From NCBI GenBank assembly GCA_024641305.1, contig JAHEDI010000008.1, positions 1 to 63,849 of the forward strand: DNA of 63,849 nucleotides, read 5' to 3'. The notes below the pieces were generated by a model. That model had not been told where the DNA came from, searched no databases, and was given only the letters and a program-made list of their open reading frames with translations. The stretch is from a bacterium. Lineage in GTDB: Bacteria > Actinomycetota > Acidimicrobiia > Spongiisociales > JAENVV01. The translations under genes were made by a program, and so were the position numbers. Positions 26,612 through 31,484 of this stretch are shown one piece after another. Each line of letters begins with the position of its first letter. Within the stretch, counting starts at the first letter, position 1.

Positions 26612-29470
26612 CTACGGCGCTGAGGCCTCGGCGAGCTTGGCGAGCGCTTCGGTGATCAGGTCACGGGCCTCGTCGACCTTCGATTGGTATGTGCCGAGGT
26701 CACCTGCGTTGAGAGCCTCCTGCGCGGCATTAAGCGCCGCGTCAGCCGCCGCAACGAGATCGGCTACCTCCGTAGGCAACTCCCCAATGGGCACATCCGT
26801 GATCGGTGTGATATCGATTCCGGCCTCGTAGCCAGGGAATGTGAGCGCCAGGGCCTGATCGAGCGTCTCGCCTATGGCGATCCGATTATCGAACACCACC
26901 GCCACCCGCTTGAATTCGGGAATGGTGTTCTCTCCGTCACCCTGGAGGTAGATCGGTTGCACGAAGATGATCGAGTCCTCGACCGGCACAACGAGCATCT
27001 GACCCTGGATGATCGTCGATCCCTCTTGCCCGAGCAGGGTACGTAGCGCCGAGTAGTCCGAATCCTGGTTGATGTCTTTCCCAACCAGGCCGGGCCCGTC
27101 GAACTGGGCGTTGGCGGGTAATCGGAAATCGATGAACTCGCCGTACCGACCGGGATCACTCTTAGCTATGAGGAAAGAGATCATGTTTTCTTTGTTCTCG
27201 GGCACGAACGGTTGCATGATCAAGAAGGAAAGCTGGTCCTCGCCGGGGAGCTTCATGAGCAGGTAGTACGGCAACATCGTCCGGTTCTGGAGGGCCTGCT
27301 CGGCCGCCGTGAACTGCGCAAGGAACCGGGTAACTTCAAGCTCAGACGTGGAAGGATCGGCCGCCACCGACCAGGGGTCCGAGTTCTCAAGAAGCTCCCG
27401 AACCTCGTCGACATGATAAAGCTGATACATATCCGCCTGCACCCGGAACAGATCTTCCGGATATCGCAGGTGTTCGCGAAGCGAATCAGGCATCGCTGAC
27501 TGATCCGTGAACATCTCGGGGAAGACCGCCTCCCACGATTGAATAATCGGGTCGGTGTCCTCAACGACATAAAAGGTCATGGTTCCGTCATAGGCATCCA
27601 CGACGGCCTTTACGGAGTTGCGGACGTAGTTGAAGCGGGTTGGCAGCGGAAGTCCAGGGAAGCTGCGTGGGACGGCGGCGAGGCGACCAGTCGATGCCGA
27701 CTGAGAGTATGGGAACGAATCAGACACCGAATACATGTCGATGACCCAGTGCATGCGTCCATCAACCACAACCATGTATGGATCTGAGTCCGTCCGAAGG
27801 AACGGGGCGGTAGTCGCCACCATGTCAAGGATGTTTCGGCGCATCATGACCTTGCTCTCACCGTCAATCTGGCCCGAAATGAGTGTGTTGAAATCGGTAA
27901 AACGCAACGCGAAGGCCGCCCGACGGAAGAATCCGCCCAGCGGAATGCCACCCTCACCATCGTACGAGGAGTACGTCGGGTCCGGATCGACTTCACGCTC
28001 GTCCGAGTTGGCAAACACGAACGTTCCAGCTTCAAGTAGCTCACCGAAATAGACCCGCGGCTCATCGACCTCGAGTTCGGGGACCTCTGACAGCGGCGGA
28101 ATGTCCTTGACCAAATAGTCGGGCTTACCCTGATCGGTGACATCGTTGGCAGGCGACACCACGATCCCGTATCCGTGGGTGAAGACGAGGTGTTCATTGA
28201 CCCATCCACTCGACTGCTCGTCAGCAACCATTTCACGAACACCAAGCTCAACCTGCGTCTCGCGTCCGTTGAGCTCGTAACGATCAACGTCGATATCGTC
28301 GAACTCGTAATACGGACGAAGCTCCTGGGACGACCGATAGGTCGACGCCAGCACCACGGGATCCCACAAGCGGAGATTCTCGACCGTGTCAGCATTGTTC
28401 GGCAAGTCGGCGGCGCTCAGACCATTGGTCGCCGGGAATTCAACGACCTCGATTTCGGCAAGATCGAACCCGAGCTTCGTAAACTCCATGTGTCGTTCGG
28501 CGTACGGGGTCTCCTTGGTAATGAAGTTCGGCGATACCTGGAACCGTTCGACGATCTGGGGATACGCCACCCCGACGATGAGCGCCACAACCAGCCACCC
28601 GCCCCCGGCGACGGCGGGCAGCAGCCAACGCTTCTGCCACATATTCGCCAGGAAAACGAACCCCGCAACCAAAGCCACAATGGCGAGAAGCTGGTTGGCT
28701 GGGATCTGGGCGTTGACATCGGTAAAGAAGGCGCCCCGGTATGGCTCTCCAGGAGCATCGAGCAGATCATATGAGTCGAGCAAATATCCCCAGGCCTTCG
28801 TAAAAGCCAAGGCCGCCAAGATCACACTGACATGGGACTTCACTCCCGGGCGCACCTCGGGCGGGCGGTCAGGCAGGAGCTTGATGCCGCCGTTGAGGTA
28901 GTGGATAACCGCCACCACAATCAACGTGATGACCAGTTGGGTGAAAAGCCAAACATTGACCATTCGCATGAACGGCAACTGGAACACATACAATGACAGA
29001 TCGTTTCCGAACACTGGGTCGAGCTTGCCGAACGATTCCGGGTTCAAGAACTGCAGGGCTGGGAGCGCCCAATCAACCGTTGATCCAGCACTCAGGAGAG
29101 CGAACACGCCGGCGACCAGCAGCAGGATCCGGCGCATGCGTGGCTCCAACCAGTCGTTGAAGCGCTCGATCATTTCGTCCTGACCCTCAATCACCAACAG
29201 ATCAAAGCGGGGTGAGATCCGTTCGGCGGCATAGAGGTTCGAATACAGGATCACAAAGGAGAGTACGAAACCCACGGCTCCAAGTGCCAGCCGACTCCCA
29301 TTAAGGGTCCACCAAACCGACGTGAGATTGACCGAATCGAACCACAAGTAATCGGTCCACAAAACGGCCAGTCTTCGGAGGACCTCGTAAGCCGCAAAGA
29401 GAACAACCGCGATGACGACCAGATTGAGCCGACGAGGAGCCCCGGTTGATGGTGATGAGTTAGAGATCAT
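26612..29470 (-). CDS. UPF0182 family membrane protein
   Basis: 952 residues, typical of UPF0182. About seven membrane helices fill the first 310 residues (for example LNLVVIAVVLFAAYEVLRRL and LFTQLVITLIVVAVIHYLNG), followed by a very large extracytoplasmic domain (YAERHMEFTKLGFDLAEIEV, QPFVPENKENMISFLIAKSD) and a short Ala-rich helical tail. The family is widespread in Actinobacteria and its function is not established. It is transcribed away from the DivIVA-like gene with a gap of 28 bases, in the same direction as YlbL and the DivIVA-like gene. Confidence 0.93.
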   Translation of the reverse strand: MISNSSPSTGAPRRLNLVVIAVVLFAAYEVLRRLAVLWTDYLWFDSVNLTSVWWTLNGSRLALGAVGFVLSFVILYSNLYAAERISPRFDLLVIEGQDEMIERFNDWLEPRMRRILLLVAGVFALLSAGSTVDWALPALQFLNPESFGKLDPVFGNDLSLYVFQLPFMRMVNVWLFTQLVITLIVVAVIHYLNGGIKLLPDRPPEVRPGVKSHVSVILAALAFTKAWGYLLDSYDLLDAPGEPYRGAFFTDVNAQIPANQLLAIVALVAGFVFLANMWQKRWLLPAVAGGGWLVVALIVGVAYPQIVERFQVSPNFITKETPYAERHMEFTKLGFDLAEIEVVEFPATNGLSAADLPNNADTVENLRLWDPVVLASTYRSSQELRPYYEFDDIDVDRYELNGRETQVELGVREMVADEQSSGWVNEHLVFTHGYGIVVSPANDVTDQGKPDYLVKDIPPLSEVPELEVDEPRVYFGELLEAGTFVFANSDEREVDPDPTYSSYDGEGGIPLGGFFRRAAFALRFTDFNTLISGQIDGESKVMMRRNILDMVATTAPFLRTDSDPYMVVVDGRMHWVIDMYSVSDSFPYSQSASTGRLAAVPRSFPGLPLPTRFNYVRNSVKAVVDAYDGTMTFYVVEDTDPIIQSWEAVFPEMFTDQSAMPDSLREHLRYPEDLFRVQADMYQLYHVDEVRELLENSDPWSVAADPSTSELEVTRFLAQFTAAEQALQNRTMLPYYLLMKLPGEDQLSFLIMQPFVPENKENMISFLIAKSDPGRYGEFIDFRLPANAQFDGPGLVGKDINQDSDYSALRTLLGQEGSTIIQGQMLVVPVEDSIIFVQPIYLQGDGENTIPEFKRVAVVFDNRIAIGETLDQALALTFPGYEAGIDITPITDVPIGELPTEVADLVAAADAALNAAQEALNAGDLGTYQSKVDEARDLITEALAKLAEASAP

Positions 29471-29498: not shown

Positions 29499-31484
29499 TC
29501 ATGCGTCGAGTACGACCGTGCAGGAACATTCGTCGTGGAGTGGAGGCACCGCCGACCCGGCGAACCCGCGGTTTGGTGAGACCGGTCCGGCCTCGGCCAT
29601 CGTCCGACATTCGATACAACCTCGTCCGGCGACGGCCCACACCATCGTCGGTGCCTCAACGCTGACGAGCGCCCTGGCGATCCCCCGGTGGTAGGCAGCC
29701 CGAGCGATGGCCCGCACCCGACGTTCGGCGGTATCGGTCCGCCAGGCCCGGTAGGCCCGACTAACGGCCGAGGCGGCGGCCCGTGGACCATCCCCCTTGG
29801 AAGCCGCCGTAACCAGATCGGCGGCGATCGCCTCGGCAAACGCAGTGCTGACATTGGGGATATCAGCCTTATGCGACTTGGGTCGACCTGGATTCGAGCC
29901 GGTCATCTCTTCGACTGCTTCATAGCCTGCCGCGAACGATTCCTGAGCAACGATTGTCAGGCCACCATGAACCCGTTCGGTCAGTTCGGCGACATCCGGC
30001 TCCCACTCGTCTTCTGCCACTCGCATCTGTTCGAGGGCAATGTTCTGCGCCTCGGTGAGCTGGCGCTTGATGTCTCGAAGGACCCGATTCATGATCGGCA
30101 GCAACAGATGATCTCTCAGCTCAAGGGCATCCGGAGGGGCTTCGACGGTCACGGCCACCAGGCGGTCCGCTTGGGCGGGTTCCACATCCCCGTCGGCCTT
30201 ACGGGCGTCGTGAACCTCTTCATGAGCATCGTTATCGGCAACTGCTGGCGTGACGACCGGAACTTCGGCCGTTTCGCGCAACGCCGCGAACAGCCCACCC
30301 AAGTCGTCCGGGTCAGGCTCGGCCGCTGGCTGCACCGGCTCTTCCGCGGCGACCCCGACCTCCGGAGTTTCCACGGTCGGTTCGCCGGAGTCGATCTCGC
30401 CGGTCTTGTCGGTTGCGTCCTCGCCGAGTTCAAGTACCTCTGCAGCTGGCTCGTTTTCGAGGGTCTCGTCGTGAGCAGTGACGTCCGGCGCTTCGACTTC
30501 GTCGTGTTTGGCCGGGATGATCTTGATTATCGAGAACTCTGCCTCCTCTGGTTCGTCGGGCACCCGAGGGGCGTTGAGCCGGCGCACCTCCTCGGCCATT
30601 TCGGAGGCATCGATTGGAGCAGCATTCGGAGGGTCGACTCGCTTCGGTGCAGGAATGAGCTTGATGCCGTCGGAATCCCAGTCAGGGCTATCAGCCGAAG
30701 GCTTTTCGATAACCTTTACCGAGGAGTCGACATACGCAGCGGCCGGAGGGGCGGCCTCAAGTTCTTCGCGTTTACGCTTCAAGTCATCTTCGAGCCGAGC
30801 CACGGCGACCTGAACGGAGTCGAGTTCAGAAAGTAGCTCAACCCGGCGAACTTCCAGCGATCGAGCTCGTTCCTGAGCAGCATCGGCCTGGGTTCTCGCC
30901 TTTTCGACAATCTCATCATGCTGGGCGCGGGCATCGACCAGCAGCCGCTCCGATTCCATTCGAGCGAGCCTCATGAGCTCTTCGCTCTCACGGCGGGCAT
31001 TCGACTGAATTCGATGGGCGTCACGTTCGGCTTTGCCAACGATCGCCAACGCCTCCCGAGCCGCCTCTTCTACGGCATGCTTCGCCTCTTCCAACGATTG
31101 CTCGATGAGCGTTTCGGCCGCGATCCAGGCGTCGCGTCGCAAATTCTCGGCCGCTTCGCTGGCCTCCCGACGAGACAGCTCAATCTCTTTGTGAGCCGAA
31201 TCACGCCAAGTGGTTACTTCACTGGTGGCTCGATTACGCAACGTGTCAGCAGCTTGATGGGCTGCCTCGAGAATATGTCTGAGTTCGTCCGCGAACGAGT
31301 TGAAGTCGATGGAAGTCTCGCCCATCTGTTCGAGCCGGGCGAGGAGCGCGTCCTTTTCCCGAGCCAGTTCATTGATGCGAGCAGCCTGGCCCTCGATGTA
31401 TGAGTTGACCTGACCCTGATCAAACCCTCGCAGTTTGGTCGAGAAGGGCGGCGAATCTTCAAAGCCGGTGGACATGGGCGCCAC
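29499..31484 (-). CDS. DivIVA-like coiled-coil protein with a C-terminal Cys/His motif
   Basis: 661 residues. The first 30 (PPFSTKLRGFDQGQVNSYIE) match a DivIVA N-terminal domain. A long charged coiled coil runs to about residue 260, then an acidic Pro/Glu-rich linker to about 450. A helical C-terminal domain ends with C623xxC626 and PPLH650xxC653xC655. This closing pattern resembles the metal-binding end of phage Mu gpF/SPP1 gp7-type minor head proteins. DivIVA proteins mark curved membranes and the division septum. The role of the C-terminal domain is unknown. Confidence 0.75.
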   Translation of the reverse strand: MAPMSTGFEDSPPFSTKLRGFDQGQVNSYIEGQAARINELAREKDALLARLEQMGETSIDFNSFADELRHILEAAHQAADTLRNRATSEVTTWRDSAHKEIELSRREASEAAENLRRDAWIAAETLIEQSLEEAKHAVEEAAREALAIVGKAERDAHRIQSNARRESEELMRLARMESERLLVDARAQHDEIVEKARTQADAAQERARSLEVRRVELLSELDSVQVAVARLEDDLKRKREELEAAPPAAAYVDSSVKVIEKPSADSPDWDSDGIKLIPAPKRVDPPNAAPIDASEMAEEVRRLNAPRVPDEPEEAEFSIIKIIPAKHDEVEAPDVTAHDETLENEPAAEVLELGEDATDKTGEIDSGEPTVETPEVGVAAEEPVQPAAEPDPDDLGGLFAALRETAEVPVVTPAVADNDAHEEVHDARKADGDVEPAQADRLVAVTVEAPPDALELRDHLLLPIMNRVLRDIKRQLTEAQNIALEQMRVAEDEWEPDVAELTERVHGGLTIVAQESFAAGYEAVEEMTGSNPGRPKSHKADIPNVSTAFAEAIAADLVTAASKGDGPRAAASAVSRAYRAWRTDTAERRVRAIARAAYHRGIARALVSVEAPTMVWAVAGRGCIECRTMAEAGPVSPNRGFAGSAVPPLHDECSCTVVLDA

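Follow-up and report, generated by a model that had tools for sequence, protein, structure and literature searches.

A second DivIVA-type protein of Acidimicrobiia with a C-terminal MuF-type domain, probably captured from a tailed phage and set between a YlbL-type protease gene and a UPF0182 gene

How does a bacterial protein that begins like a DivIVA scaffold come to end like a minor head protein of tailed phages, and what may such an ending do in the cell? This question is raised by a gene lying in a stretch of 63,849 nucleotides from an acidimicrobial genome (contig JAHEDI010000008.1), here called the window, in which the following features were delineated.

29499..31484, minus strand: DivIVA-MuF gene, a single open frame from GTG at 31484 to the stop at 29499, 661 aa
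31134..31445, minus strand: DivIVA domain, residues 14-117, with x-R-G-[FY]-D loop (PF05103, 39.2 bits)
30750..31427, minus strand: long helical or coiled-coil stretch, residues ~20-245 (from the sequence; weak matches to coiled-coil families)
30129..30749, minus strand: acidic linker rich in Pro and Ala, residues 246-452, net charge -38 (from composition and charge)
30699..30719, minus strand: first copy of the linker motif, VKVIEKP, a looser copy, residues 256-262
30648..30665, minus strand: second copy, IKLIPA, residues 274-279 (from the sequence and the count of the strict motif in the order)
30510..30530, minus strand: third copy, IIKIIPA, residues 319-325
29502..30128, minus strand: predicted MuF-superfamily domain, residues 453-661 (AlphaFold, viral Foldseek, hhalign)
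29607..29618, minus strand: C623xxC626
29520..29546, minus strand: PPLHDECSC, residues 647-655, with H650, C653 and C655
31528..32580, minus strand: gene of a YlbL/SepM-type membrane PDZ-Lon protease, 43 bp upstream of the DivIVA-MuF gene
26612..29470, minus strand: gene of a UPF0182 membrane protein (PF03699, 822 bits), 28 bp downstream of the DivIVA-MuF gene

The 661-residue frame is not a chance one, since 55 of the 59 related genomes contain a match to it. Translation could also start from the ATG at 31475 (residue 4), and no clear ribosome-binding site was seen upstream of either codon that would favour one over the other. An earlier note, made from the letters of the window, had described the N-terminus as DivIVA-like, and this was borne out by PF05103, which aligned to residues 14-117 with an E-value of 8e-10 and 39.2 bits, exceeding its curated threshold of 28 bits (40.3 bits when the whole genome was searched). 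The x-R-G-[FY]-D loop, which we take to be the membrane-binding loop of DivIVA, reads LRGFD in the window protein, and the pattern RG[YFLM][DENS] was present in 113 of the 143 family members that were scanned. The Wag31 equivalog NF050102 gave 24.6 bits, below its cut-off of 260. A canonical DivIVA is found elsewhere in the same genome (contig C45:28671-29057, L183; PF05103 E 2e-26, 341-aa frame), and the window gene is thus the second DivIVA of this genome.

Behind the coiled coil, the disordered linker was poorly alignable among orthologues outside one short motif. Its strict form, [VI][RK][VIL][IVL][RP][PA], occurred in 23 of 45 members of the window's order, with 0.1 expected from shuffling, these orthologues being related by descent and not 23 independent events. 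A looser form stands directly after the coiled coil (around residues 247-272) in most of the proteins that have no C-terminal domain and in several that have no Cys/His tail. This motif is probably a docking site, still to be called putative.

The identity of the last 209 residues was approached through family profiles. Taken alone, the window's own sequence matched VG15 (PF25310) weakly, with 19.7 bits for a cut-off of 26, and the head-morphogenesis family phrog_4728, also weakly. Orthologues matched several minor-head and head-morphogenesis PHROGs, and the portal/MuF family phrog_2662 was reached at 7.8e-11 (L021) and twice at 1.7e-8 (L006 and L009), while the best E-values of orthologues for Phage_Mu_F were 3.9e-5 and 1e-4, and VG15 was matched at 4.6e-4. 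With Phage_Mu_F (PF04233), L074 scored 21.8 bits, and no member was seen to reach the gathering cut-off of 29.6. In profile-profile comparison, the profile A1, built from 29 orthologous C-terminal domains of DivIVA-type proteins only, aligned by hhalign with eight phage MuF proteins (97%, E 1e-11), and a combined profile reached 85-86 bits against phage MuF, as compared with at most 15.4 in 40 column shuffles and 11-15 for reversed alignments. The domains in A1 had been picked for having the Cys pair, so that its invariance there is by construction; helix residues were no criterion, and invariant helix positions were kept across the 29 sequences, with identity to the window protein falling to 27%. 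Tail-less orthologues alone (profile A2) gave no clear match to phage MuF (probability 3%).

The positions of C623xxC626 and of PPLHxxCxC, which the earlier note had placed in the last 40 residues, proved correct, and so did the resemblance to the metal-binding end of Mu gpF and SPP1 gp7 that it had pointed out there. The likeness extends beyond those residues. The Cys/His end alone matched phage MuF with an E-value of 4e-6; the helices without it did so at 1.5e-4 to 2.3e-4, against 0.39 for the reversed control, which indicates that the helices before the motif belong to the MuF domain as well. A simple coincidence of CxxC motifs was accordingly rejected, as the helices alone still match phage MuF and the shuffled and reversed controls fail.

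The comparison also held in the reverse direction. A search with A1 retrieved three stand-alone genes in other actinobacteria (genome E-values of 5.5e-8 for L188, 1.8e-6 for L190 and 2.7e-4 for L192), all minor-head proteins by PHROGs, of which L188 lies within a terminase-portal-MuF run, L190 adjoins a portal gene and L192 is near a tail gene. A scan of viral contigs with A1 gave 10 pattern matches and 0 confirmed relatives. The link to phages is too distant for tblastn; with this program annotated phages gave weak matches only (best E listed 2e-2), most of the annotated ones being minor head, head-morphogenesis or portal genes.

The predicted fold points the same way. AlphaFold models of the window domain (pLDDT 90.0, pTM 0.87) and of the domain of a class-level relative (pLDDT 94.4, pTM 0.90) were compared by Foldseek with predicted models of viral proteins, a comparison of predictions with predictions for two queries, and both gave matches of probability 1.00, with 22 and 60 matches at E<=1e-3, alignments of about 250 columns and TM scores up to 0.73. 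Among the matches listed, those with names were mostly minor capsid, head morphogenesis, capsid maturation or portal proteins; a few were phage proteins whose names refer to a toxin or an ADP-ribosyltransferase portion. Searches of solved structures (PDB) by sequence and by fold gave empty or chance matches, and no solved MuF structure surfaced in them. The C-terminal domain, laid out as four long helices followed by a small beta and Cys/His end, is thus predicted to have the MuF fold. With family HMMs, profile-profile alignment, reciprocal retrieval of prophage genes and the fold of two models in agreement, we consider it very probable that the window protein joins a DivIVA part to a homologue of MuF, as the earlier note had surmised.

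The place of the gene was no less constant. The adjoining gene was correctly named as YlbL-type in that note: its product has PDZ_2 and Lon_C domains and scores 173 bits with the SepM family of NCBIfam (cut-off 200). On the other side lies the UPF0182 gene, of a family to which we take Rv3193c to belong, and all three genes are on the same strand. The survey of gene neighbourhoods that had been proposed revealed a conserved order, protease - DivIVA-MuF - UPF0182, in nearly all related genomes with enough flanking sequence. Among 80 named loci (from Ilumatobacter, Aquihabitans, Acidiferrimicrobium, Acidimicrobiales and others), UPF0182 was found in 79, the protease in 72 and a DivIVA start in 73, several of the other loci being cut by contig ends, and many start and stop codons were 4 bases apart or overlapping. 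The three genes are probably expressed together. In three loci without a DivIVA-MuF gene (L217, L224 and L226), protease and UPF0182 genes adjoin each other, an arrangement suggesting that this pair is older and that the DivIVA gene either entered it later or was lost from it. A second UPF0182 copy is present outside the operon in the window's genome (contig C88:9297-11618, E 1.5e-155).

The window's genome contains no other match to Phage_Mu_F, and no portal gene of HK97 or SPP1 type (PF04860, PF05133) was found in it. A prophage remnant was rejected on the grounds of the conserved gene order, of the absence of a portal gene from the genome and of the spread of the domain: of 198 genomes in the class Acidimicrobiia, 134 have it (110 of 137 at a completeness of 90% or more). 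DivIVA-MuF genes in other classes of actinobacteria also adjoin UPF0182, and in several cases the protease gene is found some kilobases upstream. A tree computed from 124 columns grouped the cellular domains by taxonomy and separated them from the phage (nine) and prophage (three) sequences, with a support of only 66% for the fork between cellular and phage domains. One capture followed by mainly vertical inheritance is the simplest reading of these data, and we are strongly confident that the gene is not part of a prophage and was passed on mainly vertically. The domain would have come from a tailed phage at a time preceding the diversification of Acidimicrobiia and of some other classes of actinobacteria; the direction from phage to cell is suggested by how widespread MuF is among tailed phages, with 35% of those in a survey having it (PMC5576092). 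Three loci (L118, L129 and L138) bear the titles 'Bifidobacterium breve' or 'Acidobacteria bacterium' and look acidimicrobial; they are probably mislabelled metagenome bins.

The window protein can be set beside several known systems. It shares with DivIVA/Wag31 (PF05103) the N-terminal domain, the RG[FY]D loop, the long coiled coil and the acidic linker, but it ends in a MuF domain, matches Wag31 poorly and coexists with a canonical DivIVA. With the MuF superfamily (PF04233 and PF25310; Mu gpF, SPP1 gp7) it shares the helical domain with its CxxC...PPxHxxCxC end, on profile, fold and reciprocal evidence, whereas its domain is C-terminal on a DivIVA protein, stays below the Pfam cut-off, is inherited vertically across a class and adjoins YlbL/SepM and UPF0182 genes, with no portal or terminase neighbour. 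In the polymorphic toxins of temperate phages (Jamet 2017, PMC5576092), MuF is likewise part of a multidomain protein, but there a toxin follows MuF and the gene lies by portal or terminase genes, while here MuF is C-terminal, without toxin or phage context; such a toxin was rejected, as the protein stops with the MuF domain, six residues past the last Cys. SepIVA of mycobacteria and Streptomyces is another DivIVA-like coiled-coil protein that actinomycetes have in addition to canonical DivIVA, and the abstract that describes it mentions no MuF domain (PMC11571769). The YlbL/SepM and UPF0182 pair adjoins in some actinobacteria, while in Acidimicrobiia the DivIVA-MuF gene lies between the two. 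A literature search for a link between DivIVA and MuF found none.

What, then, may this protein do? The best explanation, which we consider reasonably probable, is a second DivIVA-type scaffold whose C-terminal MuF domain was captured from a tailed phage and became fixed between the protease and UPF0182 genes. From a mechanistic point of view, the DivIVA end would bind curved membrane at the septum or pole and self-assemble through its coiled coil, and the linker motif and the MuF domain would reach into the cytoplasm as docking modules. The function of MuF is stated to be unknown (PMC5576092); SPP1 gp7 binds the portal and so enters the procapsid interior, is dispensable for assembly and helps to start infection (PMC6316719). 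The MuF domain may have retained an ancestral binding to a ring-shaped or oligomeric partner, as that of gp7 to the portal, and may now serve to anchor or arrange a protein of the envelope or of division, for which UPF0182 and the protease are the foremost candidates. The most likely role of the domain is to dock proteins or to oligomerise, and docking by this particular mechanism is a plausible proposal that we rate a little short of even. A role in division or the envelope would be in line with the neighbours: YlbL helps to clear the division inhibitor YneA in Bacillus (PMC6051672), and Rv3193c is among the Tn-seq hits depleted without the divisome member Rv0954 (PMC8093794). More tentatively, a part of a phage head may have been made into a standing component of the pole or septum, where MuF would dock a ring or oligomer and an assembly would form around UPF0182 and the YlbL-type protease that is absent from most other actinobacteria.

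In the survey of the MuF superfamily the domain was tied to phages, and 85-87% of muf genes adjoined portal or terminase genes (PMC5576092). The window protein is likely an example of a phage head gene put to cellular use in a scaffold of the pole or the division site, which suggests an ancient acquisition of a viral component by these bacteria and its integration into a conserved operon for the envelope or for division. A DivIVA protein is thereby connected with UPF0182 and the YlbL-type protease, whose envelope genes are still poorly understood. A class-wide cellular MuF in a fixed neighbourhood, with natural losses of the His, of the tail or of the whole domain while the operon is kept, also offers a way to ask what MuF does outside the virion.

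These losses were quantified at the Cys/His end, which is complete in the window protein and variable among orthologues. In the window's order (n=50), the C-C-H-C-C set was complete in 23 sequences, the His was lost in 9 and the end was absent from 18, at least two of which (L017 and L033) are truncated where their contigs stop. Elsewhere in the class, the end was complete in 71 of 97 and the first Cys pair altered in 25 of 97, the latter being the only unbiased count there, as the named class loci were retrieved with a pattern requiring the H/C/C part. In genus g8 of family f6, the proteins, of about 400 aa, have no MuF domain at all, and another genus of the same family (L026) has it. Tail-less and domain-less orthologues occupy the same operon place. 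Conservation of the Cys and His residues, which the earlier note had named as support for metal binding, was therefore found only in part: erosion or truncation of the site in some branches means that metal binding is no family-wide need, which weakens it as a core function and leaves the MuF identity untouched. In the window protein, the complete site probably does bind metal and stabilise the end of the domain, as a dispensable feature of the family. Loss of the whole domain in one genus further implies that it cannot be essential everywhere.

The same losses are what would be expected if the MuF fusion were neutral and drifting away, the DivIVA part, the linker motif and the operon being the working parts: the tail is missing and the His lost in the proportions given above, g8 shed the domain with its operon kept, and the linker motif persists in proteins without tail or domain. 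We find this unlikely, because helix positions remain invariant in 29 sequences down to 27% identity and most of the class retains the domain. We regard it as equally unlikely that a DNA-binding surface of MuF lets the scaffold fix the chromosome to the cell pole. The title of Stiege et al. (2003), as cited in PMC5576092 and PMC6316719, calls SPP1 gp7 a DNA-binding protein, and residues 543-608 of the window protein carry a net charge of +6, but the net charge of the whole domain averages -4 to -8 depending on the group, and this slight acidity makes a simple tether less likely.

A defensive decoy, in which the polar scaffold binds the portals of infecting phages and spoils head assembly, could draw on the strong binding of gp7 to the portal (PMC6316719) and on the polar placement and high local concentration that DivIVA would supply; against it speak the vertical inheritance throughout the class, in an operon of housekeeping character, and the fact that the domain erodes while the gene stays, and we consider it very improbable. 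There is still less to be said for an old helical domain of cellular origin whose Cys/His end converged on that of phages, the likeness being superficial. Single-sequence scores under the Pfam cut-offs, the absence of a match among solved structures and the frequent emergence of CxxC...CxC knuckles would fit it, but phage MuF is still matched when the Cys part is removed and only the helices are kept (E 1.5e-4, as compared with 0.39 on reversal), the other shuffled and reversed controls fail too, A1 retrieves prophage MuF genes, and both predicted models align with viral head proteins along ~250 columns, at TM scores of up to 0.73.

Two further observations concern variants of the DivIVA-MuF protein. 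One genome (G008) has two paralogous tail-less DivIVA-MuF genes, on contigs C19 and C23 (L022 and L031). In family f86 (e.g., G461, G469 and G485), MuF matches lie in frames that are unusually short, at about 330-480 aa, and that may represent a shortened form of DivIVA-MuF.
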